From positions 26,691,849 through 26,755,848 of the forward strand of contig NC_091147.1 of NCBI RefSeq assembly GCF_041381155.1: 64,000 nucleotides of DNA, given 5' to 3'. The stretch's first letter is position 1; every line of letters begins with the position of its first letter. This DNA is from Argopecten irradians. Taxonomy: Eukaryota > Mollusca > Bivalvia > Pectinida > Pectinidae. Positions 34,756 to 60,778 of the stretch are shown piece after piece. The translations under genes and the position numbers were made by a program. The notes below the pieces were generated by a model that was not told the origin of the DNA, searched no databases, and worked only from the letters and a program-made list of their open reading frames with translations.

Positions 34756-37700
34756 ATGGATAACCCGGTGCCTGATGGTCGGCCATTGTGGACGCTATTT
34801 TTCGACGGAACACTCTTCAAGCGTTACCAAGACTACCTCCGGAGTCATGACCTTACTAAGGTAACGCCTAAAACGTTATGTGTGTAATTACATCTAATGG
34901 TTTCTCCTGTCAGCGTGGCTATCGTAGTATGTTGGAATGTCCATTCATAACATATACCTAGCGCGTGTGCTTCGTCTGCATTGAAATGTTGTATAGTGCA
35001 TGTAAATAATTTTATATTCAGCGTTATCCTATGAAGACAATGACGTATATATATCAAAATGTATACAGGCATGTGACGATCTAGAAAACGAAGCAGCTGG
35101 TAATCAACAAACTATGTCTATTGCAAGCAGGGATTACTGTACGTTTGCGTTATTAAACAAAAAAAACTTATCTGTGATAGGCATGGAGACAATGAGTACG
35201 TAGCCTCATTCAAATTGGACATATCTTATTAATTTACGGTCACAAAAGTATACTAGAAATTGTCTTTGTGCAGTTTGACGGGCTTTTCACCAACAATGAA
35301 TTTCGGTCAAGGTCATTCATATTAACAACCGTGGTAACCCGTTATCTCAACATGCTACAGGTCTCTAGGCCTTTCTGAACGTGACAAGAAGTTGTTCGAA
35401 GATTTTAGAATACTTGGCCACTATGACCTTAAATATAGGTCAAGGTCACTCATATTAACAGACTGTTGATAGTCAGTTATGTGAGCATGCTACAGGCCTA
35501 ATATTAGGTATCTAGTCCTTCTAGAACTTCCCAAGAAGTCATTTGAAAATTAAAGGATTTTTGGCCTATTTGACCTTCATTGAAGGTCAACGTCATTCAT
35601 ATTAACAAACTTGCAATTTATTTATTTAAGTTAAGTCGGTAGCAATTTACATCAGCATGTTAAGGACTCTATGACTTCTAGAACTCATTAGAAGTCCTTT
35701 GAAGATATCAGGTTGATTTGGCCCCGATGACCTTGGATATAGGTCAAGGTCAATCATATTTGAAAGCTTAGCAGGCATTTATGTCAGAATGCTAGCTGCC
35801 AGACATTTGGCCTTTAGACCTTCTAGAACTTCACAAGAAGTCATTTGAAGATTTTTGGCCATTGTGACCTTGAACGAGGGTCAAAGTCAGTCATATTAAC
35901 AATTTGTAAGCCATTTATGTCTTCATGCTACAGGCCTAATATTAATTCTCTAGGTCTAGATTTTTTAAAAATCGCACTTTTGAACTTTGACCCTTATTCC
36001 TAACCGAAAGGTGACGTTTTGCAGAAAAGTGTTACATTAGTTATTTGTTCCGGTTTTAATTATACATAATATATCCAAAACAAAGTCGTTAACGAGAAAT
36101 TGACATAAATTAAAAACCGGTAGTGAGGTCATAGCGGCCATATTGGATGTTTGACCAACATAAAAATGCTGCTGTCACACCTTCAACTCAAGCCCTACAC
36201 TATGGTGACACGTCCATTGGCTTACCATTTCGGAAATCCTTTTTATACAAATTTCTGTGCAAAAGAATAATAAAACAGAACAATAAGAAGATGTCATCTG
36301 TAGGTGGAAAAACCCTATTTATTACGCTGCATTTTTCATAGCTTCTCTATCCCAGCAACTCGTACTGCTGTTATGCATGTATAAATCAGTTTTCATTTAT
36401 TAGGATTTGTTTGTTAATTGATGTAGTTTAACGTCCTTTTAACAGCTACATGTATACAAGGTCATTTAATTACGCTTACTGTTGGTTGCTTTGTTAAAGA
36501 TGCTCAACCACTGACAAATGGTATTTTTCTTTATCAAAAACAGGAGCAGACAATTTAGTATTTTTCTTCTGTTACAAAAGTTACTTACTTTACACCATCA
36601 ACACCATTGAAACGTTTGAGCTTTTAATTTTACTTCAAGATAAAAATATTAAAAATAATGTATCGCATCCCGAATAAAATCCATGGCACTTTGCCTATGT
36701 GGAATGAATTATTGTTTGCGCATGCACCAAATTGTGTTTACACATGTATACATGATTAAACACCAATTATTGTTAAAATGATGAGGTTCGTTTATGCTCT
36801 GTTGGCGATTGAGCATCTTTAAAGTTTAACGTCTTATTAACAATTAGTACCTTAAAGGCTGACCTCCTGTGTGTGAAATGTGTTGCGGTATGTGAATGTA
36901 TGGTTTTAAGGCTGTGTCTCCTTGTCAAAGTGTAGCTGTTGCCCTTTTTATACCACTATATCACTGAAGTATGTTACCGAAGACACCAAACAAGGACAAC
37001 CCACCCGGTCACATCATACTGACAATTGGCAAAACAGTCGTCCCACTTTTTTAATGCTGACTGCTAGACAGGAGCAGAAACAACCAATTTATAGATTATT
37101 GTGTCCCGACCTAGGGACAGAGCCTAGAGCCTTCATCACGATGACAAGTGCTCAACTGGAGGCCAAACCTTAAGCTGTGTCACGGAAGAGAAGCTATAAG
37201 ATTCTGAATTTAGTCCGTTCAATATAAAAGTTTATAATTTTTTTCCTAATCAATGTCTGGTTGATTTAGCAAGAAGAAGCAATTTTAAGTATATATCCTG
37301 TTAAGAAGTAAATGCAATACAAATTGGTCCTTTTAGGCTGACAAAACCGTTAAGGAAGGTTTCCCCGGTGTGCCTTGTAATATATGTAGACCTTACTTGT
37401 TTGATTTGGCAGACTGTGGAATGTTCATGTTGTTTTTTCCTGTGGTAGTGCACCTCTTGTAAATGGTAACGTTGCAGTGCTATCACACTGGAGCAACCTA
37501 TCCATTCACATTACACGGAGAACAGACAAAACCATCCGTCATTCTCAATAATGTTAAAGCTATGCGGGATGGGCTTTAAATTGCATCTCCTTTCAAGTTG
37601 CATGATCATTAAATGCGACTGAATTTGGGATATTGTTTTCTTCCTAACACCTCTCATTAAACCTCAACAACACTTTAACCTTAATCTAGTGTTCGCACCT

Positions 37701-40404
37701 ATTAGTTCGGTAATATTTTTTATGATGAATTTACAGTTAATGAGTTTCCCTCTGTAACGGGAGGTTTGTGAAACTAAAGCGATGACTACAAATGTAGTAA
37801 ACGTGATTAATCAAAGTCTTTATTTTTATTTACATTTTTCAGGTTTATTTTTTTTACAATCAAGGTTAATTGCCTTAATGAGGACAAAATTTCATTATTT
37901 AGAGGTGACATTATCGACAAGTTATTGTATAGAATTTTTCATGTGCGAAACAAGGTTGGATCGATAAAAAAACAGGCAAGGAAGGATAGAAATAATGATG
38001 TTTGATCTGTGTAACTCGTAAACAATTGGAACATATAGTCATAAATGTCACTATCTAACGTCACTCCCTGGGAGAGACAACTTACATTAACAACGACTTT
38101 GTCGATGAATGAGAATTACAACTTAATTATAGGTGACGGGAATCACTTAACATAGGTGAATACGGAAATATATTTTTTATTAGTGCGCACAGGGAAACTA
38201 CACCAGGTAACGACAAAACGACACGGGAAGGTATGCATAATATTATTTGCATAATATGTATAGATGTTCATTGTATTTCTTCAATGACATTTACATTTGT
38301 ATAATTTAACGGTTAATTTATATTTTGTAAAGAATTTAGGCTTCAGCGAGCAAAATAAGGTCAGCGAATTTGTGATATGTACACAACATAATCTCATAGT
38401 TGGTATGTGTCGCAAGAAAGTTAACAATGAACATAGTTCACATGTCTATTTTACATATATCTATCCAATAGATATTATCTAGGTTTATTTGCCTATTATA
38501 AGGACAACAAGCATTAACATTAAAGTGTTTTGCATAGTTACAAATTAGAAAACTTATTGAAAGTACACTAATGTTTATACAAACAACTTCATGGTGTATT
38601 AATTTTGCAATAAAGGTTGATACACAATACAATATAAGCAAGCTTATCGTGTACATGATTTGTTGTATCGCAAACCACCCTAACCCCCCATCACACCCCC
38701 CCCCCCCCCCCAAAAAAAAAAAATAATAAAAAAACCCAAACAAACAAACAAACAAACAAAACTTTCACACAAACAATCAAACAAACAAAAATTCGAAACC
38801 GTAAACAAAACATTTTTTTGTTTAATGAAATAAAGGGAATATTTCCCTATACTTAAAACGCACTGTAAAACTCTGCTACAATGTAGATCAGTATCACATT
38901 TAGGTTATACTGTCGATTTGCCGTTGATACAATTCCATGCTGTCATGTTCTAATAACCTTAATTCTCACTGGTTCGGAACGCAGCCAATGCATACATGTA
39001 TAGCATGATATTTATAGACTAATATTTACGTGAACGTGGCTTCATTATGATGTAAAGTGATAGAAATAGTAAAGTTAATTTAAACACGAAAAATGCAAAT
39101 GAATGTTTCATCCTTGGTGGCGTCATAATTTTGATATTTTATTATCTTAACATCCGGAGAGAAATTAAACGACGGCTTAATGAGGGATTTTATCTATGTC
39201 TTCCTAAGTGACTTCATTCTTTCGTTTTCATTGACGCTGCCTCAATTTTTGCCAGTCGTTGAAGGCTCTAGTTTCTGTCACCTCGCCGAAACCATATACC
39301 ATTGCCTATAAACGTAATAGTTTCTGTTCCTGTTTAGTGTTCAGCATTAAGATGATGGGCTGGTAACGTTTGGGTGGGGTGTGTTGCTCAGTGTCTTCGG
39401 CTGCATGTGTCGGTGAGCTAACACTACAAAAGGGAGAACAAAGACAAAATTGTTATTAAACCGTAGTCTCCAAAAACATGGTTGGCGGTTAATAACTCTC
39501 TTAATAGGATGATTAGCGCCTAATGAATAAACCAAATTATGTATGTCATATATATCATAGCAAATCTAGTTAATTGTTCCATTGCTTAATTTAGTTTTAA
39601 TATAACATGAGGAAGTGGAATTTTCAATTATACAGCATGTATTGCCTTAAAATATAGACATAGAAGGAACTAAAATTGCACCCTGCTGTAGTCCAGTTAC
39701 TAGTATATTTAAATTAAAGGGGTATCATGCACTAACTTCGAATTCTATGGAAATAGATCAAATGTTAGAATGCTTACAACTTTTGTCATTTTATAAACAA
39801 TCGGGAATTTTTTTAAAGTCTAACAAATATTTTATAAAGGGAGGTTGGTATGTAGCGGACTAATGCATCTTGTAAGTCAGATTACCGCTAAAATATAATT
39901 AAAATAACGAAAATCTTAATTGGCGTAAATAACCAGCTACATGTGGTAAATGTTTGTTTTTTTAAGAGCTTCATTATTTCACCATTTGTTCAATAATTTT
40001 TCATTTTTCAGATCCTGAACAGCCGTGCTAGCGTCATCAGTAACAACTCTTTATCGTCTGAGCCCCCGGTACTAAATGACGAGACAAACTGGCTACCTCC
40101 CATGGGGAGTAAGGACACCAATGGCGCAACGCCTGTCTCTCGGATGACGTCAACTAATTCTGAGAATTTCCTGACGGCAGTTGAGAAGAAGCGACGGACC
40201 AGGCGGACTACAGGATGTGTCGTGTTAGGTATTCTTTGTTTAGGAGCAATAGCCGCTGCCGTAGCCCTTATCATCCATTTCGTCTTTGTAAAAAGTAAGT
40301 ATTTTGTTTATTTTTTAAAAATGTTTTCATGTAAAGAACATTTTTATTTTCCTTTAAAATCATTCATATATGTAATATGCTTTTAAATGAAAATTTTTAA
40401 GTAT

Positions 40405-40448
<44 letters not shown>

Positions 40449-43400
40449 GGGGGGGGGGTGCATCCCTCGAAAAGATATGTCTAAAGTCATAGCTTTATTT
40501 ACAGTACTATCTAACAATGGAAATTTATGAGCAGTGGTCTCAAAGGGTATCGTTAGCTTTGTGATGCAATATATTGAGCTTGGTTCCTCTAATAATTGAG
40601 TTGCTGCATATTAATTTATTGTAAGATAATCTGTTTTAGACATATATATGAAAGTCAAATGTTGAATTAAACTACTATCACTTACGTATCAACTAACAAA
40701 GTATAATGTACAATATATATACAAACACTAGACGTAGCCTTTTTGGTTGATCATTAAAGACATGTGTCTGACGTTTCACGAGGCTATTTTGATTATTTTT
40801 AAATTTTAATGTATAAACCTTCAGGTATCAATTAATGGAAACGCAACAATCAGTTAAAATACATATCCTTATTGGCTAGCTATTACATAAATCCTCTTGC
40901 ACAGTTGTTAATATCAGGCTATGAACCCATATTTTGGCAACACTTTGCTTACCTCTTGGCAACCATCGTTAGCAATTTTCTAGAACATCACTAAATTCAG
41001 ATAACGACATAAGATATATATTTTACATTTACCAGGTAAAGAACACGTGTCGAACAGTGCCCCTATCCATATCCCAGGCAGTGACACACATCACCAGAAC
41101 CTAAGCGGCCTAGGTAAGTATTGTACCAGTATATATCACACATTTGGTGTAGTGCTACCTATGATTTTATAAATAAAAATTAACCCCTTTGGATCACTGT
41201 TTTGTAAACCCTAAAGTATTCCAGTAATAAAATATCATCCGTGTTGAGCCGCTGTCATTGTCAGAGTCCGGTGAAGATTAAATTTATCCGTAAGACGTTC
41301 CAAAAACGGTAGTTATATTACTGAAAGTGCTTTGGCAAGACTTTATCAATACAATTGTGAAATAATTATATATCATTTTGTGGCGGTTCATTTTTGTGGT
41401 ATTCGTATTTAACCAGAAGAAACGAAAATTTATCCGTACAGAACTTGATATGTTTAAAAGGACATATATACATGTATGAACATAAACTTCGGAAATTATC
41501 ATGTTAATGGTATAATGTTATTTAACAGGAAGAAAGACTTATTTTCAAAGCAATCATATAATAGTTTATCTTTAATCGAAGTCAATCTAATATAATTACT
41601 GTTATATTTAAATCCATACAGAAAACTTGTCTCCCACGAAAACTGAGCCCACCAAATAAAAATCGTTTCACAGCAGAATTAAGAACTTTTAGGTTTGAAA
41701 AGGTATCAAATACGTACATATATATGCAAGAATTACTATAATTTTTGAATGCATTGTACAGATACAAATAATATTTTCACAAATGACTAGTCTTCAAAGA
41801 TAGCACTGCATTGAAATGAGTACATCATATATGTATTTACGATGGTAAATGTGAAATAGTGGTTTAGGAGTGCGTTTAACATAAGTACATATATGTACCT
41901 TTAAAATAAAGCTCACCTTAAAACTGTTTATCCATTTGACTCGCAAATGGTTTAAAAGGCTATATTATTACATTATTGAGGGCAATACATTTTTGTCAAG
42001 ATATTTAAATGCAACGTGAAATAGTTCCTAATAGTTATGTTACTGGATCGGTTGCCATGGTAACAAGGCCACAGTACACAGGTGTTGTAAAGTGGTTAAT
42101 AAATGATTATGTAGTCCCTGTATAAAATTCAAATTTAGACAAATGATAAAACATATAGACGCTTTATGTTTCGCATATCTTTATCACATGGTCACTACGG
42201 ACATATATATGTACAACGGAGGCTCTGGAATTGTAATAATTTAAATATTTTACGATCAAGCTGCAATTGCTGTTTATAGGTTTAATACAGTGGTTAGAGT
42301 TTTTAAGGCAACATATATCATTTGGTTGCCATGTTAACCACACCAAACGCCAAAATGAACACAAATTAAAGTGTCTGGATTATAAGTGAGCTCATTTGGT
42401 TATATTGAAAAAATAGCATGTCCCTTGGTTGTCATTATATCATATCAGGAGTAGCGTGGGCATCATTTAGCGATTGACTTGCAATTCAAATGATTTGTTT
42501 TTTCTACATTCTTTTGACATCTAGCAAATATCCATGCATGCCCGTAATGTTTAATACATTCAAAGATGTATTAATTATTAATAAAACATACTTTGCATTA
42601 TGATTATAACATTGTTGGCGATTTAATATATGAATAATCTAATGAATTGAGGAATGAATCATTTTGGCGATCATTACAAAATGATGTAATTGCAATTGTA
42701 ATAACAGACCCATGTCTTGTTATTTAATGGATGGTAAGGCTAATTACAAATTAACTGTAATTTTCAAATCCAAATGAAATGATTTCTTGTCAAACTAACA
42801 TGATAGACTTTTATAGAATTCTGAATTATTACTTTCCTTACCTACCTGCCCTTTTGATGTAAGCAATATTCAGATGTTTTGCAGCAAATGAGAAATTCAG
42901 ATGTCGACATCCAGGTGATTCAGCTGATCAAATATTGACCAAACCTTGTGACATCGTTACGTAGTGCCAGCAAACAATGTTCAGTGAATCAAAACATAAC
43001 ACTAGATTCCTTGTTTATTAATACAAATGTTTTGCGTTGGCGTTTTAGACTCATTGACATATGCCCTATTTAACACGTTACGTGTAATACAATTTTCCCT
43101 GAAAAAGAAACCCCAGAGGCAAATATTACCTTGAATTATATGAACATTGCATTTGATATATTGATAGTTATCATCATAATTATGGAAAATGGCCATCATG
43201 ACATGTCATAGGCTTTGAAGTTGATCTGGTCCTTATACGGTTCATCTGGGTGTGTTCTTGATGTGTTATACACTTTTGTAAACCAAATGTGCACAATTTG
43301 GCAAATTTCTGAACGAATTCGTTTGATTATCAGTTGCTCTCTAGTGAATTTACACGCAAAAAGGTATATCTAGCATGGTTTGCAGTAAATAATAGCTATT

Positions 43401-46400
43401 TGCTATGCTTCAAACAACTTCACAGTTTGCGTTTGCGATAAGCTTACAGCTGATGTCAAAAAATAAACATGTTTACGGAGAACGTCACTTGAACTCCTCT
43501 TTAATTAAAAAATATGGTTCATGAAAACAATTTAATATTGAATTGCAGTGAACGATTCTCGGCGCCATGGTCTCTCTACGATATCCCCCCGTATACCACA
43601 ACTGCAGAACATCCCTACCATCACAGAGAAAGATGGCAAGCCTCAGTTTATACCTCTCAAGCCTTTGCAACCAGCTCAAAACACACCAAAACTGGCACGT
43701 AGGTATTTGGCAGATGGAATTTTATTTATTTTTGGAATGTGGATTTTCTTTGATTTTACAAATTTTAGGGTGAACATATACTGTTAAGAATTTGTTAAGA
43801 AGCGTTTCACGCTTTATCAAAAATGATGAGAGAGATTAGTTTATTGATTAAGACATCCTCATATGAGTTACATGTATTATACATGTACTGTAATAGCATA
43901 CATTAACCCATCCACGATACTCCAGGGCTTCGAATCACTTACGATATGTAAAATTACCATAGAAAATATTTAACAAATGATAAGGATGCATGAATTATGT
44001 ACTAAGCATTAATTGATTTATTATATAATGACTGGACCAGCGATGGCAAATTTCATTTTAACACATTTTATTGATCTGACGTCAAAAGAATTTAATAACA
44101 GGCGAAGACTGTATGAATCATTTTCTTATGTTGATAAAGTGATTGTATTTACACATATTGTGAAATTGATAATTATATAGCAAAAAAAAAAAAAAAACAT
44201 AGAGGAGGTAACTAATTAGGTCAAATATGCATATAACATACATACATGCACTCACATACAAACTTAAGGTAGACGTAATGATTTAAATTTAAGGTATCAT
44301 ATTAAATATTAAACATGTGTTAAATAGTTTTTTTATTGAAGTTAATACACAGTTAAGTGGTTTGACCAAATGTGCATTATAGAATGACTAAGTACGTGTT
44401 AATACACATTAAGGATAGCGTACTTTCTCTCACTCGCATAAACGTTCCATAGTAACAGGAAGAGAAATGAGAGAAACTGAAATAGAAAGGTAAATGATCT
44501 TTAACATTGAATAACATTTTCGAAAATGGAGTCAATGTATTTTTGTATAATCAATTAGCACTATGTTCAGAGCTACGCATCACGATTTTGACGAAGAGAT
44601 CAGGTGTAAGATTAACAACACCTGTACAGGTCTGTATTGACATTTGGAGCGAACATTTATAAGGTGTGTAATAAATTTGATAAAAAAGTTTCCATATCTT
44701 TGATATAACAAAATTAATGTTTCACATTATCATGGAATCTGCATACAATCACACTACATCTTTTTTTTTTCTTTTTTTTTTTTTTTGGGGGGGGGGGGGG
44801 GGGGTTTTGGGAGGGGATAATTTATCAGAAAAGTTTGCAAACTGGCATAATGTCTTCAGGTAAATTAAAATCAGTTCTTAGTCAATTTCAAGTCAATAGT
44901 ATATTTATACTATTATACTCAATATACTATTTAGATAATTCTATTTTTCTTACAGTATCGATTGAAATAAAGGACATGTACACAACTATAGGAGCTAGTG
45001 GTATCTTCACGTGTAATATCAATGGTATTAAAGACTGGACATCGGTATTCATACGCGGAAAACGGAAAACACAGCCACCTGGTATTTTTGAATTCATCTT
45101 GACTTCATCAGGACAATTTTCATTAAAGGGAAATAACTCCGACATGGTTGTACGACACAATAAACAGAAAAATCTTGAAAATCTGAGCCTGGATAATGTA
45201 TTAGTTTATATAGCCTACACTAACGTTAAATGTGAAAATCAAGACACTTTGACGTGTGGCGTCCAGGCGGGCGGAGAGACGGATAGTCGGACGGCAAAGG
45301 TCATAATCACAGGTAAAGAAATCCGTGCTGCGTGTTACATGTGTTCCGTCTTTGCATATTACAGAGTAAGCTCCCTTGCGAGTAGGTATCAATCGTTACG
45401 TCATGATTTTCTTACGTCGTTTTCTCCGAAACGTATGACGTTACGCTCGCAAACACATGCCGTCGCAATCAATACCTACCCGCAATAGCTGACAACTCTG
45501 TAATATGCAAATACAGAATATGCAATGATTTATGTACCTAATATTAATGCAAATACGCATTGTGTAAAATAAATTTGCTTTTGTTTTCCTTTTGATGTCT
45601 TTAGTACGTACCGTATATCCCGTTATTTTCGCAGCCCAAAAAATTGCGATTGGGACCTAAAAAAGAAAGTTATTTTTTTCGAATCAAAATTTCCCGATTA
45701 CGCTTGAAGAATTTATGAAATCCAAGCGATTCTTAATAAATGGATTTCACGAACCAAACTTTCTTAACCAATGTGATGGGCCGCGAAATCGCGAACATAT
45801 CAAAATATCGGCTGTACGGTGTCATCCATACGAACGTATGACACTTGTTTTCATTCGCAGAAGCAGCATGGAACAAATCTAGAATGATTTATAAGTATTA
45901 TAAGCTATCAGAAACTTTATTATATTGGCAACAAAGTTTTGAAAAATGAACGACAAAGACGTTTGCCATCAGGAGTGAATTTCAGGTTTGTTTATATAAT
46001 TATTATAAGGGGTTAAGTGCTTCTAGTCGTTAGGATGAATCTATTGTATATGTTAGCGTTCATTTATACGGAAACATGTAGGCTATCTTGTTATAACGAG
46101 ACTGAAAGAAACTACATGACACGTACAGGGTTCGTTAAATTTATACAACATATTTTGTTTTTATTCATAAATCTTGATAGTATCAACACATTTTTAATGC
46201 CGTTCACATTCAACGTGCAAACGTTCAATTCATCACCGACAAATAAGTGGACCAAATAAAATCGAATCTGTTTATCGACTGACTTTCGTTTTGTTACACA
46301 GTGGACCCCGATCCGGAAGTGAAAATGACAATTCCAATACAGGTTATTGAGGAAGAAAAACTCCGAATTTCTGCTTCCTGGATGGCAGGTTACCCTGCCC

Positions 46401-49400
46401 CTCATGGAAATTTAAGCTGGGCAATTATCGAGCCAGGAGAAACAGAAACCTCTGATTTTTTCTCAAGTGCTCAAACGACATGGACATTAAAACGTCAGGA
46501 GAGCAAGTGTAAAACTATTATAGATACTCAAACAACATTTAAACCCAAATTAAATTGGAACGGGACAGATGTAATCGTCAAACCGGAAATAACGCCAGTG
46601 GCAGGAGGGGATATTCCGGATCTAAAAATAGAGTCGTCAAGGGAAACCCTTTATGTCGTTCCAGGTGAGTTATTTTGTGATGCCTAATTTTCAAATTTTA
46701 CTCTTTGAAAAAAATGAACAAAATTTCGAGCTTATTGTCTAATGAAATTATTTCGTTTGATAAACTGGTTTAATTCTAAACGTAACTGAACGAATTTTCT
46801 TTAATCAACATTAATAAATTATTTGAATTAAGCACCTGCATTTGACTCGCATGACTGCTAAGTTGTTAAGATTAAGTTGAGTTCATGCTCTAATGCTTAA
46901 ATGATTTCACAACACAACTGAAAGCTTTTCTATGCACTGCAATTTCTGTTCTCCGCACAGCACCGTTTCTTTAAGTAGTTGTACGCTATCTTATCTACTA
47001 ATGTACATACCTGGCACATTATATGCTCTATGTTACGTCAAATACGAATTCAACGCCAACAAAATGATTCCGTAGTGATAAATATTCAGTTGAATTTGTT
47101 ATATTGATTCCAAACTTAATGCATACTGTACCCATACGTGCCTTACATCAAGCAGAAGAGCGGTGACCGATGCGCAATTTATCATTATTAAACATGGTAC
47201 AGAATCTTTACAAACCAACAGAACCAGGAACAAATGGTATTTTACTGGTGCCTAAGTACGCTATGATCAGTCATGTGTATCGTACAAGGTAACATAAACC
47301 AAACGTAATTCATCTTTGCGTTATCTAATATGTTCTGTTAAGAATAAGCTAAAAAGACAAAACGACCTTATTAATTCCTTATACTTCAGCTTTCACAGAT
47401 TAATGCTAATTGAACCAACGACTTGCTTAAATACTAGTTTAGAAAATTATTTAATAAAAAATAAATACTAGTTTAGCGAAACATAAAAAAGGCATTGACG
47501 ATCGGTTTGTAGACAGACTTGGTCTATTGACAGATGTAGATAAAACAACATTTAGCAGGGTCAGGAGCAACATGCGCGGAATAAGATATATCATTAAGCT
47601 CAATTAATATATACTGAAGTTATCGTGTTTACAAGGAAATGTTAATTTACAACGTGAAATGACGGATAAAATACACAATCCTATACAAATATAGGCCACC
47701 ATGACCTAGAACAGATGACCGAAAAATGGTATTAAACAGCTTTATAATGTAGTTGTTACCAAACTATTGTTATCCTGAAATTAGTTAGATATGACAACTC
47801 AACCACATTACTTTCCAATCAGTTCCAATTACGAGCCTATGATAAAAAATATGAACATTGAACGTATAATTATGGTGGCCATTTTGAATTTGAACCGAAA
47901 ACGAGGATGGCCATGGGAGGATTTGATTTTCCATGGGGTTTGCTGTACCTTTATTGAACCCAAAACAGTTGAAAAACCTTTGTTAGCGTTTATTTCTAAC
48001 CTAAGTTGTTCATTGCCCGTCCTTTACATATACGCTGACCATTGAATGAAGTGAATCGCCTGTTTATGGATCAATTTATTAATCTATATGTCATGATTAA
48101 CATCTACTTACAACATTGATGGACATTATTGTCTTTTTTACGTTGAAATTGTAATCTGTGAGATGCATAGATTTATATTGCTAGGCAGGGGTATGCCTTG
48201 TGCGTGTTGTTCGCAAAGTTTACAAAAAGGAAGAATGGATATTAGTATTCCAATTAGTTTCTACCATAACACTAGCTGTATAATAAGGTAAAGGTATGCA
48301 TGACTCCTCTAAACTGTGTGTAGTCCGCACTAACCACCGAACATGTTAACTATTGTCAGTGTAAAGAACTCATACGTTGAAGATGGAAATATTATTTATA
48401 TTCAAAGGAGAAACAGGTTCGATAACTCTGACTAGACAAATAGTCTGAGATACCATCTGTTATAAGCATTAGTACCAGTATTCATGCCATGTTTCCTGGA
48501 CTCACACTGTAGGCGGAAAGAAAAAGCGTAGTAGACGGAGGTCAAGACGAAGGAAAACTAAGCGAGGCCGGGCAAAGAACTAATATGTTAGTCAACAGAA
48601 TGGTCGTGTGGTAAGTCGCCGGCCACAAATCCCAATTAAATATAAATCAAAATATCTCAGCAAGTGAACGATGATTTTTGATGGAATGAACTCGTTTATG
48701 GAATTGAATTTGAACTGGGTTATATATTAATCATATTCATCATAAACATTAAATAAAATTCCTTTGGCATTGTAATCATATGTCAGATATTAGATTTAAC
48801 TTCATCAAATATACACCTGGCTTTTGGTAGCGAATTTCTATGCGGACACGTCACTCACTGTGGTCGCGCAAGAACATTGTTAATCCCTAGCTTCCATGCA
48901 CTCTGCTTTAACAAAGACATGACATACAAAATGTCCACTCCAGCTTAGCCAACGCTTTGAATAGCAAACTTCTATGGCTTATTATGTCCCCCTAACGAAG
49001 TTGGGGGACATGTTGTTTTTGCTCCGTTTCTCATTATTATTGTTATTACAAGCTAACCGATACTTACATTATATATATCATTGGCTTCTTTGGCAAAATA
49101 TGTGTTTTCGTTTAAAACTCACATACAGTGTATATAACAATAATGATGATAAAAAAAGCTAACCGAATTTTATAACATATATGTATAATTCATTTTTCAC
49201 AAAAAATAATACGGGCAGCCACATGAAACGTCATGATATACACGTGCATATCAAAAGGTCTCCAATACTTTTAAATGACATACGTATCAATTTACTAGTA
49301 AACGTTTCTGTCATAATTTGCGTGCCCCTGTGTTTTGGCTGAGGTGACCAAGATTTGCATTTTACGGTCTCGGAATAGCAGTTGAAACTGCTTGTTTTAC

Positions 49401-52026
49401 ACATGTTCATAGAAATTTAACTGTCGAAAACAGATATATCTAGAATTAATATCCCATGAAAAGTTACATAATATAAGACCACGATCGAGAGCATCGTGGG
49501 TAGCGATAGGCCAAGGACGTCTCCTTGTAGGCGGTATATGGGATTTGCAAATTATTTAGTCTAGATGAAATAAATGATTATTCTAATTACTGATTTATGT
49601 AAATAATGAATGTACTTGCAATATTTCCAACGTTGGACATTTTTATTTTGCTATAATTAATATCGATGCTGCTATCGTTTGTGCGATGATATGAGGAGGT
49701 TTTGCAGAGTCATTTCGGTTTTCACTGTCGACACCAAAATAAAACTTGTATTGTAAGATAGTGAACGTGTATCATATTTCTCCTGAACTTTTTCATTATA
49801 CATACAGAAGATGGTATTCAAAACGAAAGCAAATTGCCTGTTATTTACACAAATTCGCTCAAAGCAAGTTTTCATTGCCATAAAATCTTATTTGTTCATA
49901 TATCACAAAACCTGATCTTTGTGATCATTGCCTACTGCACAGTTCGTTTGGGGGACATCTGTAATGGTCCTCCATTACAATCATTACTTGTCGCTTCTGC
50001 TTTCAACGTATGACCGTTTCCTTAAATGTAGAGCATTTGTTTTCATAGACTACACTACAAATTGTTTAAGTATACAGTCAAACCCAAGGAACTCAGATAG
50101 TACAAAATCCCATTTTTGGGTCATCATGTAGCGTGCTGGGATGAAAGGCTACCAAATTTATTCAAATGAATAACCTTGACCTTAATTCAAGGTCACAGGG
50201 GTCAAATAGGCTAAAATCCTGTAAGCGACTGCTTCTAAAGAATCGAAAGGCTCAGGGAACTCATACTTGGGCTGCAACATGCTTGGAAGAAGAGCTAAGA
50301 AGTTTGTTCAAATGATAACCTTGACCTTCATTCAAGGTCATGGGGTCAAATAGGCTAAAATCTCTAAACGACTTCTTTTCAAGAACCGAAAGGTCTAGGA
50401 TGCTTATATTGATATTGCTGCATACTGGGATGAAGGGCTACCAAGTTTGTCCAAATTAATGACATTGACTGTCATTCATGGTCACAGCGGTCAAATAGGT
50501 TCAAATCTTCAAACGACTTCTTGACAATAACAAGAATGCCTAGACCTGATTTTGGGCCTCTGACATGCTGGGATGCTAAGTTTGTTCAAATGAATGACTT
50601 TGACCTTTATTCAAGGTCACAGAGGTCAAATAGGCTTAAATCTTTTAGCGACTAGGTTGTTTTGTGCTAATAGTCAGATGACCGTTATGGCCCATGGGCC
50701 TCTTGTATACGATTGGAAATTGTAAATTGTATTCATTATCCTTGTTTTTATAACCCGTTGAGTACGAATCGTTTAATATGAAAACCCGCGTGATATGAAA
50801 CGATATTCGAATCCCCTGGACACTGTTTGTAACATATATCATATAATTACATATTAAGATCAAGATAAAGTTTTCTTATGTGTATGTAAATGGACATCTT
50901 CATTTGCAAAAGGAAAAGGTTCTTCTAAAATTGGAATTAAATGAGTCGATGAACAATGTATCAACCGACTGCAATTATCAAAGTATTTTTATGTCGTATA
51001 CATTAAAAACAGCGCGAGGAAAAACTATTACATATCCATAGATAAAATCTATATTTGAAAAAAGTACCAATGATAAAATCGGATGCAATTATTAAAGTAT
51101 TTGATGTCATATACATTGAAAACAGCGCGAGAAACAGCTTAAACTTAGCCAAAGATAAAATCAGTAATTAAAAATATAGTACCGAAGATAAAATCGGCAA
51201 AATCTCCCATGTATCTAGTGAAGACGAGGGAATCCGGCAGGAACATAATATATTTTTGAAATCAACTTCAAAGTTCGATTATGATATAATGAGAACATCA
51301 ATGAATATTTAAATTTATTGTCACATCCTTCTTATAATCTTACAATATTCATCCCCTGTATGAATTGTATAGGAACATATTAGATGATATTCATGCACGG
51401 GCTTTGAATCAGAAATCTTGTTTTCGTAAGTGCAAGCGTTATCCGTAAGAACATCTTATGAGATAGACCTAGTTTTCATTTTAATCTTTACTTACTGTTT
51501 GAGTATCAAGTTGAATATGTTATTGTATGGAGATAAAACGTCAAAATGTGAGTATGGAAAATATTACACTGCCGTATCAACTTATCAAATATGACGTTCT
51601 AAACGCCACGTTAAAACATTTTATGTTATTGGCTGATAACATAATCTTTCAAACCAAGGAAAAAAATGTTAAATGATATCATCCCATATTATACATTTGC
51701 ATATTACAGAGTTATCTGCCCTTGCGGGTAGGTATTGATTGTGACGTCATGTGTTTCGGAAAAAACAACGTAAATTGCGCACATAAACGAATGACGTCAC
51801 AATGGATACCTACCCGGAAGGGAAGTAACTCTGTTATATGCAAAGACGGAATACATTTCTTCGTTTTTTTTTTGCAGCTGATCACTGTGATGGTTTCACC
51901 AACGATACAAGGATTGCCCATCCGTACACCTGTACTAAGATTGTCCGCTGTATGCCAGAGAAAATGCTCATCTATCCATGTCCAGAGGAGACCTGCTTCC
52001 AGGAGAATACCAAGCAATGTGAATAA
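34756..52026 (+). CDS. Type II membrane protein with two Ig-like domains and a C-terminal chitin-binding type-2 domain (VCBP-like order)
   Basis: Seven exons give about 494 residues: 34756-34860, 40012-40294, 41036-41113, 43549-43698, 44956-45312, 46302-46664 and 51878-52026 (TAA). Exon 1 (ATG, start MDNPVPDGRP) joins exon 2 in phase 0; every later junction is phase 1. Residues 1-102 are probably cytoplasmic and end in KKRRTRR. One membrane helix spans about 103-127, and there is no signal peptide, so the C-terminus should face outward. A Ser/Pro-rich stalk follows to about 205. Ig-like domain 1 (206-324) has Cys in GIFTCNI and in DTLTCGVQ about 80 residues apart, a V-type spacing. Ig-like domain 2 (325-445) keeps GYPAPHGNLSW but lacks the first Cys. 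Residues 446-494 have six cysteines (spacing 14-5-9-4-7) and end FQENTKQC, matching CBM14/peritrophin-A. Likely role: surface binding of chitin or another glycan. Exon 1 is the least certain; Met at 40102 is an alternative start. Confidence 0.82.
35280..35905. repeat. Second array of about 135-bp units with AGGTCAAGGTCA
   Basis: About five diverged units, each with a TGACCTT...GGTCAAGGTCA(C/T)TCAT core followed by CATATTAACA or CATATTTGA. They lie in intron 1 of the Ig/CBM14 gene. The sequence between motifs differs from the 33467 and 50086 arrays. Confidence 0.7.
36494..36822. mobile_element. TTAAAGATGCTC MITE, copy 4
   Basis: Termini TTAAAGATGCTCAACCACTGA and GGCGATTGAGCATCTTTAA, outermost TTAA at both ends. 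It lies in intron 1 of the Ig/CBM14 gene. Confidence 0.85.
36826..37215 (+). repeat. Dispersed repeat, same family as 6345-6920
   Basis: Begins TTTAACGTCTTATTAACAA directly after MITE copy 4. It matches 6345-6920 in CCGAAGACACCAAACAAG, CACCCGGTCACATCATACTG and GGGACAGAGCC. A more diverged piece follows at about 37400-37620, and an inverted fragment lies at about 39355-39445. Confidence 0.65.
38690..38765. repeat. C-run/A-run junction plus (CAAA)n
   Basis: About 17 C bases lead into about 12 A bases (38695-38722), followed by a (CAAA)n microsatellite to about 38760. On the opposite strand this is a T-run followed by a G-run, as at 40410-40459 and 44761-44805. Confidence 0.85.
40408..40460. 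repeat. T-run followed by G-run
   Basis: About 38 T bases directly followed by about 11 G bases, 115 bases after the donor of the transmembrane exon of the Ig/CBM14 gene. Confidence 0.9.
44760..44818. repeat. T-run followed by G-run
   Basis: Two T-runs separated by one C, followed by a run of about 18 G and then TTTTGGGAGGGG. It lies in the intron just before Ig-like exon 1 (44956). Confidence 0.9.
45344..45520. mobile_element. MITE of the GCATATTACAGAG family, copy 2
   Basis: TTCCGTCTTTGCATATTACAG at the left is mirrored by CTGTAATATGCAAATACAGAA at the right. It starts about 30 bases after the donor of Ig-like exon 1 and shows the unoccupied form of the nested site seen in copy 1. Confidence 0.87.
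48513..48584 (+). CDS. Candidate alternative last exon encoding a basic tail
   Basis: It follows the acceptor CTCACACTGTAG inside the intron after the second Ig-like exon. The phase matches the phase-1 donor at 46664. In that phase it encodes 23 residues, 16 of them Lys or Arg (GGKKKRSRRR then SRRRKTKRGRAKN), and then TAA. AATAAA lies at 48752-48757, about 170 bases on. Using it would give a 468-residue form without the chitin-binding domain. The composition stands out from the AT-rich intron. There is no transcript evidence; it could be a chance open frame. Confidence 0.5.
48752..48757 (+). other. Poly(A) signal for the candidate alternative last exon
   Basis: AATAAA about 170 bases downstream of the TAA at 48582-48584, a normal distance for a short 3'UTR. 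Confidence 0.4.
48985..50712. repeat. Composite bivalve-type repeat, TGTCCCCCTAACGAAG to GGCCCATGGGCCTCTTG
   Basis: Opens with TATGTCCCCCTAACGAAGTT, has GGGGGACATCTGTAATGG near 49950, contains the tandem array at 50086-50660, and closes with GCCCATGGGCCTCTTG, a motif common at the ends of bivalve dispersed repeats. The limits are approximate. Confidence 0.5.
50086..50660. repeat. Tandem array of about 145-bp units with TCAAGGTCA, related to 33467-33985
   Basis: About four units. Most contain ACCTTGACCTT(C/A)ATTCAAGG, then TCACAG-GGTCAAATAGG and a CGACTTCTT spacer. They lie in the intron before the chitin-binding exon. Confidence 0.85.
51689..51853. mobile_element. MITE of the GCATATTACAGAG family, copy 3
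   Basis: TTTGCATATTACAGAGTTATC and its mirror, ending CAAAGACGGAATAC. It stops about 24 bases before the chitin-binding exon, so the polypyrimidine tract and acceptor of that exon begin right at its edge. Confidence 0.87.
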
Positions 52027-54908: not shown

Positions 54909-57900
54909 TTAAGTGTGTTTTGGTGGTCCATTGCCTTCTAAGGTTTGAAAATATTCATTTCTTGTTACATTATATAACGTCTCCTCTAAGCAGTCTAGTG
55001 CCAATGGTTCAAAGTCCAGATGCAATTTATTGACGAAGAGTTCCTTTCTATTAATCAACAAAGGTAGGTCCCCGACACCGTATACACACACTCGTCTAAC
55101 GTATTTGCCATGACAAGGCTTCGCTGTACCCTCCCATGTCTTGAATCTAGTTATGTAGGGTGGGTCGGTAGAGTTCCCTTGATCGTCTGAAAATATTTGA
55201 TACGACAATAAATTAAAATCGCCCAAAGTACTTAAAATACAAACCAGTATTCTCTCATACTTACAGGTGTGATACTGGCTAGTCTCGAACAATACACTCA
55301 TGTCGTCTGAGGCTGTATTTCATGGCTACCATGCAATACAACCTTGTGACATCACAGCGTAAACAAAATTACTACTCTCGGTATATATGCAGGCTTTACT
55401 TAAAAGATGCAAACAACGGGATTTCCGTTGAAAATATCACGCACTTTTTCATGCATGGGGAATTGAATTTATATCAAAATGGTGGAAATCGTACAACTGC
55501 AATTAAATATCGAAGTATGAAAGTGACATACTTTTTCATATGTGGATATAAATGATAGGGGTATTCTTCCTGAGGGTCACAAAATGAACCCGAGGCTTGC
55601 TTCATATCCACTTATGAAAGACTCTTTATATTTCTACATTTCATCACGTTAAATCTAATTAAAATTCTATGTTCATTATCTACTCCGTAAACTCCGTGTT
55701 CATACGGGGTTTACGGAGTAGATAATGAACATAGAATTTTAATTAGATTGAATTGTGTTGGAATTATATTGACTTATTATATTATATAATTATTTACTCA
55801 ATATAGAGAGAATTCAGAGCGCGTAATGGAATATTCAACACTTCCAACATTTTGTGACAAAACGCTTTATTGCACGAAAAAATGTTATTGTGAATTAAGA
55901 TACTACACAAGAAATACGAATCTACCTAACATTGTAAGACTGATATTTGATGATGCAATTAGCAGTGGATAAGTTTTATTTTTTTTATCGCATGACTTAA
56001 ATTATAAAATGATAAGAACAAACCTGTGTATGATCCCCCAATCTTTAGGTGCTTGTTGTAATGAAGAGAAACAAAAAACGTTTCATCAGGAACTTTTGTT
56101 TTGCTACACCACTTCAGAAACTTTTTCGCTGTTTTATTATGTAAAACATAATCGACAAACTCTCGGTTAACAGCGATCTGAAGATCTCCCTTCACTGGTA
56201 TGATACCTGCAGGGGCTTTCCCTGCCTTCTCCCAGCGTGTTGCCCATCTATTCCTATGACACATGCAAGCAAAAAAAAGTTTTAGAATCGATTATGGAAA
56301 CATCCATGCTAAAATATCGATATTATAATCAAATATTTGACACAACTTATCTGCACATATACATAACGATGACATAGAACACTTTAAATTAATAAACTGG
56401 TGTTTCCATGTTCACCTTATTCTTAAGGAATAAATTGAACATATTTTAATGTTATGGTTGTATGGAACAGATATCTTTTTTTTCTCAGTACAAATATTTT
56501 ATCCCCCCAGCTGTGTATGATTTGTATATACATTTGTGGCATTGCAACAAATGTATATACACATCGGTAATTTGGTGAGAGCTGCCAGGGTTGGGGTGCC
56601 CTGGGGTCAACTCCCCGAACAATAAAGTCCTCGTACAGGAGGGCTCTCGCACAGCATACATCAATTTAAACAATAAATATAATTTTTTTAAAGCCATTAT
56701 AGTTAAAGGAAAAAAAGGAAAAACTTTTTTAAGAAAATTACTTGTGTATTGACTTGTATATACAGTGGAACCTCCCAAAACCGAACCTTCTCAAAACCGA
56801 TCACCTCTAGAAACCGAACATGAATGTCATGTACGGAATGAATTCCTCTTTATTAATAGTATATAAGACTTCCCAAAACCGATCCCTCCCAATTCCGAAT
56901 ACCGGACCAATTTTGAGATCGGAATAGTCAAATGTAACTTAAATACACTTCTGAAAACCGGCCTTACCTGAGCGACACCGATAGATTGCATTGAGGTCTG
57001 ACCAATCGACCGTGAAATACACACGTACCTGTACCATAGTTGTTGCATGCCATGTCCTTGGGCATGTATGCAGATGTGAAGGCTATAGGTACACGGTAAT
57101 TATACCCGAGATGGTGGTGTAATTATTTAATCATGCCTATTGTTTAGATATCTAACGAAAGTCTACCATGTGCACGCGGTTTGTTTACTGTAGGAAAACA
57201 AGCAGAGCTTGTAATAAAGAGAAAGTTTCGTATTCAAATCACACGTTTCTTTTTTATTTACATATGTAGTTGTCGGATAACGTAAATTATCTGTATGAAG
57301 AAGCCGAAGCCATGTATTGTTTTAGAAAATGACTATGTCATATAATGACCGGCATCGACTGATCATCGTGTAATTAGACCATATAATTTGATTCTTGACG
57401 TAACCGGAAGCGATCGGTCGTATGTACTGTAGCTATAGGTTGCAGACGAGAACATCCCCAAGAACATTCACGCAACTACATATGTAACTAACTAAACTAC
57501 GTTTATAAGCGGTAACAAAGTCATGTTTGCTGTAATCCATTCCTTTTAAACGTATGATTCTCTCTTTTGTCACACATATCTTACTGCACTCTAATTAAAC
57601 CGCGTCAAACCATATAAAAAACTATATGCAAACTATCCTTATAACTTTACAAAATAGATAATCTCTTCAAATTTACGAATTCATTAAGGAAATATATTCT
57701 TTCCCTATTAAATCATTACCCAATGCTATGTGTAATCAACCAATCAGACGTGACGTTTCGAACGGCAAAGTCATGTTAGCTTGAGTGTTTTAAGGTATAA
57801 GTATTTGTGCCAATGAACATGATCGGTACAAACCAAGACTAAATTTTGGACATTTGATAAGGACATTGTCATTCCAGTTCCACAATGGGTTTGGGGTATT

Positions 57901-60694
57901 ATCATAGCATTTTTTTTTCTCCAGATACCATTTTTTCTTTTTGGATGATTTTTCGTTGCCAAGACATTGATTTTTTATGAAACAATAACCTACGATAAAG
58001 TCGTGTAGTTGATAGGAGGGGTATCACTATGAGACGTTTTACGGACACTTGGTGATAAGCAAAATATTTTGCATGAAGATACATTAGGGTCAGCTGATCA
58101 TCGTATGCTATTCAGAATATCCTACTTTTTCTACGCTCATGTTAATTTCAGAGGTCAAAAGTCAAAGGTTCGAAATTCACATTTTCATTGTTTAAGTAAT
58201 ATTCAAATAAATATAAGAATAGAGATAGCACTTAACACTAACCCTAGCGTTATTGAATAGGTACGTGTAAGTGTAAGGTTAAGTGTAATTATAAAGTTGC
58301 AGATTTTGCCTGTAAATATTGGGTAAGTTCAGTTCAGAAAACTCATCAAAAATTCAAAATGAAGGTCACAGTGACCTAGTTAAGCTTTTATTCTCTTTTA
58401 GCATTAAAAACTTTAATGTTTTGCTGAAAACTATGATTTTTCAAAGATTTGATAGTTTGCAACTGATGTTTAGTACTGCGTAAGGATCTTGACATGACCT
58501 GCTTAAGAAGATTACATCATAGGGTCCTATTGGTTATAGGTCACGTGCATAAATTAGGTCATATTCGATGAATGGTATCATCATCTGTCCAATAAACATA
58601 AGCTGTTTTCCATTTTTTAAGTCGGATTTTAAATTATTTAGACTTGTTTTATTATCTTGATTTCAAGCAACACCTACACTTAAGTAGAAATTTAAAATCA
58701 TGCCTGCTGCCCGACTGCATGATCGTAAAAGACGACTAAATTTGGAATGTTATTTCACAGATATTGAGATGAAATTATTTGATTTTTTTTTCAAGCATTT
58801 CAATGCTTTGGAATAATGTGTAGCACTTGATCTGTATTTTGTCACGATCTTCTTTAGATTATTACATCCTAGGGTCACATTTTCTGGGTCACATGTATAA
58901 ATTAGGTCACATTCAATTAAAGTTATTGTCTGTCATCTAAGTATCTTCTGGATTTTCCCTGTTTAAAGCAAGTGTTTAAGCTATTTACGTTCGTTGTAAG
59001 AGAAAATATTAAGCAACACCTACATTGCAAGTATGATATTACAATTCTGCATGCTGCCTTAATGAATGATCGCCTTTCTCTATCATACAGTGGGACAACA
59101 GGCATAATCCTATAATCCTACCTTAGTGAAGGCGTTGCTTGAAATTAAGCTCATAAAAAATGTCTTAATAATTTAAAACCCTACTTTAAACATTGGAACA
59201 CAGCATATCCTTAATACACAGATGATACCATTCCTTGAATATGACCTGATTTATGCACGTGACCTAATCAATTTGACCCTAGGATGTAATCATCTTAAGC
59301 AGGTCATGTCAAGATTCATGCAGTACTAAACATCAATTTCAAGCTATGAAGTCTTTGAAAAATTCTAGTTTTCAGCAAAAATATTAGAGTTTTTAATGCT
59401 AAAATGGCATTTATGCTTAACAAGGTCAATGTGACCTACTTTATGAACTTTTCATCAGTTTTCTGCACTGAACTTCACAAACCCAATATTTACAGGCAAA
59501 AAATGCAAAAAATGTTATCTCTATTCTAATATTTAATTAATTAGGACTTTAACAATGCAAATGTGAATTTTCACCCTTTGACCTCTGAAATTACCATCTG
59601 CGTAGAACAAAAATGGATATTCTGAACAGCATACAATATGCAGCTGACCCTAATGTATCTTCATGCAAAATATTTTGCTTGTCACAGTGTAGCCGTAAAA
59701 CGGCCGAAAGTGATACATCTCCTTTGGCAAACATAGTGATTGAGTCATTATATTATTTCAATAAATATTATTTCACCATATTCAAAATTGATAAAGGATT
59801 GTTCGACCAATGATATACTTAACGATTTCTTAGGCAATGTAATAGTCAATGTCTTGTTTTGTTTTTTTTTGGTTTTTTTTTTCAAAGATGTCATCAAAAT
59901 AAAATTTCAAAAGGTTGCGGCAATGATACTTACAAAACAGATTTGCGGATGTTGTTCTTCCCATTGAGATTTTTGAGGATTCCAACAATCTCCGCGTTGG
60001 TTTTAAGCGGGAACTCTTGTCCCGTGAGGTTTATGAAATATTTCCAGGATTTATATTTCCATAATTCATGCATACATATCAAGTCGGCTTCAAGTACAGA
60101 CATGGTACCCCATCGAACGTCTAATGATTCTTTTGAAACGAAAACATTTTGAAAACAATTGGTGATTTCTGTTAACGTTTCCCGAAATTCTGGTTCACTT
60201 TTGTTGTCCAAGTGGACACAGTAAATGTTCTGGGGTCTATATATGGACCTTAATAGTCGTTCCACTTGTTCTACATCTTTGTATACCACCATACTGTAAG
60301 CAATGGGGAACTGCTCTTCTTCTAAAGTCAATGAACTTGTTATGTAATTTCTCCGACTTTTAAACAAACTACAGTTCTTTGCAAGATATGAATAGTAAAA
60401 AGAGGGAATACGTGTTGTTCTTTTGAACGATTGTGCAACCAACATCTCCTGCTTATTTCCAGACAGCAGTAAAGGACAACTGACTGCCATTGGAGTTCCT
60501 TTACCGAAAACAAACCCAGATATCACATTCTGATCGTAAAAGTTAAGGTTGGCAACTTGAGTATCAGGTAAAAACATATACCGGTGGGATATTGGTTTAT
60601 AGTATGAAACCATTATGGTAAGTCCACACACAAGTACGAACGCTAGCACTAAATATTTGCGTTTAATACTTTGCGTAAACACATTACAAATCAT
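54909..60694 (-). CDS. Core-2 type beta-1,6-N-acetylglucosaminyltransferase (GT14, GCNT family)
   Basis: Three exons, 59934-60694, 56024-56253 and 54909-55186, give about 422 residues with splice phases 2 and 1. The protein is type II: a short cytoplasmic tail, then a membrane anchor (KRKYLVLAFVLVCGLTIMV, about 12-30). Family landmarks are IAYSMVVYKDVEQVERLLR, YCVHLDNKS, ESLDVRWGTMSVLEADLIC, YFINLTGQEFPLKTN, PCHGKYVRRVCVYGVGDL and DFEPLALDCLEE. Nine lumenal cysteines occupy places typical of core-2 enzymes. It should add GlcNAc in beta-1,6 linkage to core O-glycans in the Golgi; specificity (core 2, core 4 or I-branching) cannot be told. The start is set at 60694 because no earlier in-frame ATG follows the upstream stop. 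Length is close to human GCNT1 (428). Confidence 0.93.
55259..55635. repeat. Dispersed repeat shared with 27630-28112
   Basis: Begins TTACAGGTGTGATACTGGCT inside GCNT intron 2 and ends CATATCCACTTATGAAAGA. It is collinear with the copy in iGluR intron 2 but lacks most of that copy's terminal palindrome. Confidence 0.7.
55668..55752. repeat. Perfect-looking hairpin
   Basis: ATTCTATGTTCATTATCTACTCCGTAAAC is mirrored by GTTTACGGAGTAGATAATGAACATAGAAT around a short loop near 55698, with flanking AATCTAATTAAA also mirrored. The arms are about 40 bases. Confidence 0.85.
56762..57010. mobile_element. Pogo/Tigger-like terminus with AAAACCGA repeats
   Basis: Starts TACAGTGGAACCTCCCAAAA and has CCAAAACCGA/CTCAAAACCGA/AGAAACCGA repeats at irregular spacing. 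It resembles the end of a pogo/Tigger-type transposon. The second terminus was not found. Confidence 0.45.
58036..59702. mobile_element. Long foldback element (arms about 0.8 kb) in GCNT intron 1
   Basis: The left arm from 58037 (TTTTACGG, then GCAAAATATTTTGCATGAAG) is the mirror of the right arm ending at about 59700. CATTAGGGTCAGCTG, TTCAGAATATCC, ATTTACAGGCAAA and GACCCTAGGATGTAATCAT each occur once per arm in opposite orientation. The centre is near 58900. No coding capacity was seen. The family is shared with 18290-19345. Confidence 0.85.
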
Positions 60695-60778
60695 GACTGT
60701 CACTGGATGCCTTGAATTAGTCGTGATAGTATTGTGTAAACTACTTCTGATCCCGCTTGGCAAATGATATCTGAATAG

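Follow-up and report, generated by a model that had tools for sequence, protein, structure and literature searches.

Does a mollusk have a cell surface counterpart of the VCBPs, in which two tandem immunoglobulin (Ig) domains are followed by a chitin-binding domain? The question is raised by a gene at positions 34756-52026 of a 64,000-nucleotide stretch from Argopecten irradians (contig NC_091147.1, positions 26,691,849 to 26,755,848 of the forward strand), referred to here as the window. An earlier note on this DNA described the gene as VCBP-like in its domain order and membrane anchored as a type II protein. The present analysis indicates that the predicted protein is VCBP-like in this order and that it does not belong to the VCBPs. 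The favored reading, held with modest rather than strong confidence, is that of a type II single-pass surface receptor from a divergent family. In this reading, its V-C arm carries a CBM14 (chitin-binding type 2) tip that would have a role at the animal's own chitin-containing barriers, and the likeness to VCBPs would be convergent.

Gene Structure and Membrane Topology

The rebuilt gene model lies on the plus strand and joins seven exons into a 1485-base frame encoding 494 residues and the stop codon. All six introns are of the GT-AG type and show phases 0, 1, 1, 1, 1, and 1, with exon boundaries set so as to hold the frame open. The seven-exon reading with continuous splice phases proposed earlier is thereby recovered, and the proposed order of cytoplasmic tail, one membrane helix, stalk, Ig, Ig, and CBM14 is borne out by sequence and prediction. 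The putative exon 1 (34756..34860) contributes the start codon and residues 1 to 35, which open the cytoplasmic tail, and its open reading frame (ORF) leads into a GT donor in phase 0. It is the least certain exon of the predicted gene, resting on an ATG and the donor site, and has no match elsewhere in the genome at an E value of <1. If exon 1 is wrong, the methionines of exon 2 would still give a type II protein. Exon 2 (40012..40294) encodes the remaining cytoplasmic tail, the basic stretch KKRRTRR, and the membrane helix (residues about 104 to 128), and its phase 0 acceptor and phase 1 donor match the membrane exons of three relatives described below. The stalk is encoded by exon 3 (41036..41113), with a sequon at residue 151, and by the proline-rich exon 4 (43549..43698), with a sequon at residue 157; no relative is known for either exon. 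Exon 5 (44956..45312) encodes the V-like first Ig domain (domain 1, or Ig1), containing C225, the extra cysteine C298, and C306, and exon 6 (46302..46664) encodes the constant/C2-like second Ig domain (domain 2, or Ig2), in which only C394 is kept. Exon 7 (51878..52026) contains a variant CBM14 domain with cysteines at residues 449, 464, 470, 480, 485, and 493, followed by the stop codon. It is assigned to the Ig exons across a last intron of 5.2 kb containing repeat arrays because the two corresponding exons of a relative on contig C10 are 0.4 kb apart and the frame continues there to a similarly placed stop.

Profiles built without the window sequence were scored against 1132 ORFs of the window and 5660 shuffled ORFs. 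Each of the three profiles ranks its window exon first among the 1132 ORFs: Ig1 with an E value of 5.5e-5 and 19.5 bits (best shuffle, 15.7), Ig2 with 1e-10 and 37.7 bits (best shuffle, 7.5), and CBM14 with 8.5e-12 and 41.2 bits (best shuffle, 11.1). The Ig2 and CBM14 profiles are partly dependent, with some relatives having been reached via the window's own Ig2 or CBM14; no relative in the Ig1 profile was picked by resemblance to the window Ig1, yet this profile shows the narrowest score margin of the three. When rows are left out one at a time, the real score lies above all 2000 shuffles for each of the 23 aligned rows. The weakest of these are domain 1 of a relative at C14:6.21 Mb (9.7 bits; E value of 0.009) and domain 1 of the C10 relative (14.3 bits; E value of 2.8e-4).

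By its sequence signals, the protein looks like a type II membrane protein. The model has one strongly hydrophobic segment, which follows KKRRTRR from about residue 104 and has a mean hydropathy of 2.97, and shows no hydrophobic segment at the N terminus. Seven of the eight sequons lie C-terminal to the helix. Net charges before and after the helix in four genes of the family are +5/+1, +5/-4, +6/0, and +4/0, counted over flanks that were cut by eye and are unequal in length. The basic stretch preceding the sole helix, the unhydrophobic N terminus, and sequons placed mostly after the helix agree with the type II topology proposed in the earlier note. A Pfam match to UL45 over the membrane helix (E value of up to 1) is at chance level and was dismissed.

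Ig Domains and CBM14 Domain

Pfam finds no Ig match in the window protein, and profiles and predicted folds were therefore used. AlphaFold2 models Ig1 with ten strands, including C' and C'' (predicted local distance difference test [pLDDT] of 82; predicted template modeling score [pTM] of 0.76), and Ig2 with a shorter strand layout (pLDDT of 80; pTM of 0.73). At an E value of ≤0.001, Foldseek matches the predicted models to 343 solved chains for domain 1 and 31 for domain 2. An Ig fold for residues 206 to 445 had been set beforehand as a test of the proposed architecture, and the models match solved Ig domains; as modeled, both domains have the Ig fold.

The two domains appear to differ in type. 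Among the Foldseek matches listed, domain 1 resembles mainly antibody V domains, CAR D1, and myelin P0, with some I-set domains such as telokin. Its profile finds titin, contactin, NCAM, VSIG4, and the T-cell receptor mu chain among solved chains. Pfam places the first domain of one of four relatives over the cutoff for V-set (26.1 versus 26) and one of four over that for I-set (23.9 versus 23.7), and domain 1, as modeled, reads as V-like (V/I). For domain 2, the top seven of the Foldseek matches listed are D1-D2 chains of SYG-1 and Roughest, followed mostly by antibody V domains and nanobodies and also by MAG, CD22, VEGFR2, and nectin-like chains. The domain 2 profile finds the constant half of antibody light chains and nectin-4, and the second domains of two of three relatives exceed the Pfam cutoff of 21 for the CD80-like C2-set_2 (23.8 and 25.9; the third reaches 19.7). 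Domain 2 reads as constant/C2-like because of the Pfam results for the relatives, the strand layout, and the profile, a call that is held less certainly than the V-like assignment of domain 1.

Both domains feature an additional cysteine. That of domain 1 is located between strands E and F in all seven aligned sequences (C298 in the window), and that of domain 2 is located between strands D and E in all nine (C394 in the window). In tandem Ig domains, the E-F and D-E loops sit at the ends that touch, and this placement suggests that C298 of the V domain forms a bond with C394 of the C domain, an elbow disulfide.

The CBM14 domain of the window scores 19.8 bits with the Pfam profile CBM14 (PF01607) versus a cutoff of 22.1 (E value of 9e-4; profile positions 1 to 45 of 53). 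Three relatives score 39.7, 47.6, and 13.7 bits. The cysteines of the window domain deviate from the usual six-cysteine spacing. An extra cysteine follows 5 residues past the fourth, and the cysteine that is last in the usual pattern is absent. This extra cysteine probably pairs with the second one because both are missing together from the CBM14 domain of a relative at C14:4.33 Mb (locus B). The earlier description of two Ig domains and a six-cysteine CBM14 domain thus stands as to the domains present and needs correction in two respects, the atypical cysteine spacing of CBM14 and an Ig2 domain without its core pair.

Relatives in the Genome

The genome searched comprises 845.8 Mb in 1508 contigs, with the window located on contig C14. 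A search with the whole protein yields the window gene itself and two weak CBM14 matches and no close paralog. Entry to the family was gained through a faint match of the Ig2 exon at C14:36.08 Mb (E value of 0.21), which led to a distant relative. An Ig-Ig-CBM14 order on one strand is found at at least six loci, five of them on the contig of the window and one of them weak; this count is a lower bound, taken from eight other loci opened widely in a genome with 122 CBM14 exons. The predicted window gene is not a one-off; the genome contains several divergent relatives of it.

Three genes were spliced into frames: those of the window, C14:36.08 Mb, and C10:34.35 Mb. The relative at C14:36.08 Mb shows a full frame of 970 residues, which reads as tail, KKRKRN, helix, Thr/Pro-rich stalk, Ig-Ig-CBM14 twice, and a further CBM14. 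Its splicing is in phase 0 ahead of the membrane exon and in phase 1 at all nine later junctions, with 1 of the 10 introns being GC-AG. The predicted cytoplasmic tail (36098555-36098286, minus strand) contains tyrosines and the stretch RPLPDIP, which fits an SH3-binding pattern. The triplet gene at C10:34.35 Mb follows the plan of the window gene from the membrane exon to the stop, which lies one residue past the last cysteine in both; its upstream stretch offers no convincing candidate for a first exon.

The remaining loci are less complete. At C14:10.59 Mb, the triplet is preceded by a membrane exon and a Thr-rich exon; all three of its domains are picked up by profiles that had not seen this locus. 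The triplet at C14:10.31 Mb is a recent duplicate of it. Locus B (4.327-4.351 Mb, minus strand; L036-L038) contains many consecutive cysteine-rich exons in one direction, judged EGF-like by eye, that lead into an Ig-Ig-CBM14-CBM14 end, and the triplet at C14:6.21 Mb (6.218-6.228 Mb, minus strand; L040-L041) has a weak domain 1 and stands beside a tandem-repeat array. C3:19.88 Mb has a domain-2-like exon only, and weak Ig1-like matches occur at C7:16.25 Mb. A type II-like membrane exon lies upstream at each of the three triplet loci, of the six, that were inspected for one (C14:36.08 Mb, C14:10.59 Mb, and C10), which gives four such genes with that of the window.

Comparison with VCBPs and Other Known Systems

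VCBPs, found in amphioxus and in the sea squirt Ciona, where they serve in gut defense, are described as secreted proteins with a leader peptide and two tandem Ig domains, both of the V type, followed by a C-terminal chitin-binding domain (PMC2632668; PMC7947342). In contrast to this V-V arrangement, the window protein combines a V-like domain 1 with a constant/C2-like domain 2. In place of a leader, it has an internal helix with a positively charged flank on its N-terminal side, as predicted from a model whose exon 1 is uncertain. The single C-terminal chitin-binding domain is shared by the window and C10 genes, whereas the relative at C14:36.08 Mb has three CBM14 domains, and the shifted cysteine of the window CBM14 is unlike the chitin-binding domain of VCBPs. 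As in VCBPs, one molecule could bind both chitin and a second ligand.

Splicing in frame 0 leaves codons uncut. All exons of amphioxus VCBPs are reported to be in this frame (PMC2632668), whereas the domain exons of the window family are in phase 1, which is found at 5/5 junctions past the membrane exon in the window gene, 9/9 in the gene at C14:36.08 Mb, and 4/4 in the C10 gene, at splice sites chosen to maintain the open frame. A convergent origin of the resemblance is favored over an ancestral one because of the constant/C2-like domain 2 and the difference between phase 1 and frame 0. Of the two origins left side by side in the earlier note, convergent or anciently related, the first gains and the second loses by these features. 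Its view of topology as the main difference from VCBPs holds insofar as the type II anchor differs; the exon phase and, as read here, the type of domain 2 differ as well.

The snail VIgL family, which includes the FREPs, CREPs, and GREPs, is described as having one or two Ig domains and a carbohydrate-binding domain (PMC12074976), a combination resembling that of the window gene. BgFREPs are soluble, with N-terminal Ig domains and a C-terminal fibrinogen domain (PMC12074976), in contrast to the membrane anchor and CBM14 of the window gene. Members of this group join Ig to fibrinogen, C-type lectin, or galectin domains, whereas the window protein matches only CBM_14 and, at chance level, UL45 in Pfam. 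The genome itself yields 159 fibrinogen matches. Siglecs are type I proteins whose V domain binds sialic acids, and they have a V-C2 interdomain disulfide, with cysteines at other positions being linked. Their order of an N-terminal V-set domain followed by C2-set domains (PMC5877582) is similar to the V-then-C order read here; unlike the window gene, siglecs and oyster CgSiglec-1 have no CBM14.

Within the same genome, a putative gene at C14:6.55 Mb (L049:2857-9570, plus strand) contains a type II-looking helix exon, as does the window gene, followed by an exon rich in Thr and by three CBM14 domains. It differs by having no family Ig exon in the 9.8 kb read; perhaps it represents a related receptor type. 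A search of openly licensed papers by title and abstract opening, which did not cover automated protein annotations, finds no type II Ig-Ig-CBM14 family.

Proposed Function and Alternative Explanations

In the favored reading, the stalk with its sequons and the helix with its basic flank would hold the V-C Ig pair, leaving CBM14 outermost. The C298-C394 bond would stiffen the V-C elbow. Through its CBM14 end, the receptor would anchor the cell to a surface containing chitin, where a second ligand would be held or read by the V domain. The likeliest surface would be the animal's own chitin in extracellular layers (mantle or periostracum or gut lining), making the protein an adhesion and surveillance receptor; the next likeliest target would be fungal or other foreign chitin. 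In the mantle rim of the mussel Mytilisepta virgata, CBM14, C1-set, CD80-like C2-set, and V-set domains are reported as enriched, listed apart and not as one protein (PMC5549309), and bivalve shell-damage responses are reported to involve Ig domains (PMC8382897). Own barrier chitin seems the likelier target because of these two observations, which bear on it indirectly.

Several results weigh against this reading. The tyrosine between CBM14 cysteines 2 and 3 is present in five of seven aligned rows and missing from those of the window and C10, so that the only two genes of this shape may bind chitin weakly or no longer bind it. The core cysteine pair of the window domain 2 is gone, leaving C394 alone (alignment A5), and the Foldseek matches of the modeled domain 2 are mixed, giving no separation of C from V. 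The proposed elbow bond is deduced from two separately modeled domains. Domain 1 of C10 was missed by the first family profiles, which matched domain 2 and CBM14, and was spotted by eye; Pfam finds nothing in it, and its score when left out (14.3 bits) is weak. The eight best CBM14 matches of the genome (L001-L008) contain no family Ig exon within 1.5 kb on each side, and many CBM14 genes of this genome may be of other kinds. In the one duplicate pair of the family, CBM14 taken alone shows no clear constraint.

A possible explanation, though one that we would not rank as probable, is that of a pattern recognition immune receptor of hemocytes or gut. Here, the V domain would bind microbes and CBM14 would bind foreign chitin, as in VCBP-C but on the cell surface. 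The functional parts would be those of Ciona VCBP-C, in which the chitin-binding domain is reported to bind the chitin of fungi and the V domains to act on bacteria (PMC6414549), and membership in a divergent multigene family that includes a recent duplicate pair fits such a role as well. Contrary to this explanation, the window gene is single copy within the reach of the genome search, and the Ig domains of the duplicate pair appear constrained. Between C14:10.59 Mb and C14:10.31 Mb, the proportion of nonsynonymous changes (pN) over the three domains is 0.029, compared to 0.100 for synonymous changes (pS) (Fisher P value of 1.3e-4), and the nonsynonymous and synonymous rates (dN/dS) by part are 0.036/0.134, 0.022/0.107, and 0.033/0.053, with the last pair of values belonging to CBM14. 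This pair, the sole duplicate pair, argues against a fast change of the V domain.

An improbable explanation is that of a decaying family member with an open frame that is losing its binding features. The loss of the Ig2 disulfide and of the CBM14 tyrosine would suit such decay; seven open exons with intact splice sites and the retention of the extra cysteines common to the aligned relatives argue against it.

It is very unlikely that the gene is a true relative of VCBPs, going back to an Ig-Ig-chitin-binding gene in the protostome-chordate ancestor whose product was later secreted in protochordates. The identical order of domain types would be expected from such an ancestry, as would the many antibody V domains that Foldseek lists for domain 2 after its top seven matches and that could point to a V origin of this domain. 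They stand against a domain 2 that is of the C type by Pfam on the relatives, layout, and profile, phase 1 domain exons versus frame 0 in amphioxus VCBPs, and a type II anchor versus the VCBP leader. No VCBP-named row appears among the matches listed in the solved-chain and fold searches, in whose sets the presence of VCBPs is unchecked. Highly improbable, too, is a misjoining of two neighboring genes, in which a type II Ig protein would stop near 46700 and the CBM14 exon at 51878 would belong to another gene. The 5.2-kb last intron with its repeat arrays and a join read from sequence alone are countered by the like exon order and open frame of the C10 and C14:36.08 Mb genes and by the fit of frame and phase at exon 7.

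A more far-reaching proposal is put forward tentatively, as a substantial possibility short of a favored one. A protostome lineage may have independently invented a membrane-bound counterpart of VCBPs, a type II multigene family with a disulfide-locked V-C arm and a chitin-binding end that reads what sits on chitin. VCBPs are known from protochordates, and the available parts of that literature name no protostome counterpart. If the proposal is true, Ig-plus-chitin recognition was reached at least twice, and the different second domain, gene structure, and topology would mean that the pairing of Ig and chitin-binding domains arose repeatedly. It would also provide membrane-bound receptors in which V-domain binding and chitin binding are separable for testing. 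The extra cysteines form a signature for locating the family in other genomes.

Neighboring Genes and Repeats

The gene is flanked in the window by exons of an ionotropic glutamate receptor (Lig_chan and Lig_chan-Glu_bd; window positions 16947-26849, minus strand) and of a Core-2/I-branching glycosyltransferase (Branch; window positions 55962-60778, minus strand). Two copies of an inverted-repeat element resembling a miniature inverted-repeat transposable element (MITE) lie within its introns and outside the protein. The first copy, with TTTGCATATTACAGAGT ends, is located at 45351..45511, 38 bp past exon 5, and the second, with the same ends, at 51696..51844, 33 bp before the acceptor of exon 7.

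Further repeats and Ig exons are found elsewhere in the genome. At C14:6.218-6.228 Mb on the minus strand, Ig and CBM14 exons adjoin a long tandem array that encodes DVSKPRQTQYSHRPQYLIP-like repeats, and another array (GTSMSNKPGQSQAVALDIW) follows an Ig-like exon at L048:716-2641. On contig C3, Ig exons of the CD80-like C2-set type are densely clustered at about 0.15-0.51, 7.87-7.95, and 10.13-10.26 Mb, and these clusters account for 36 of the 65 genome-wide matches listed.
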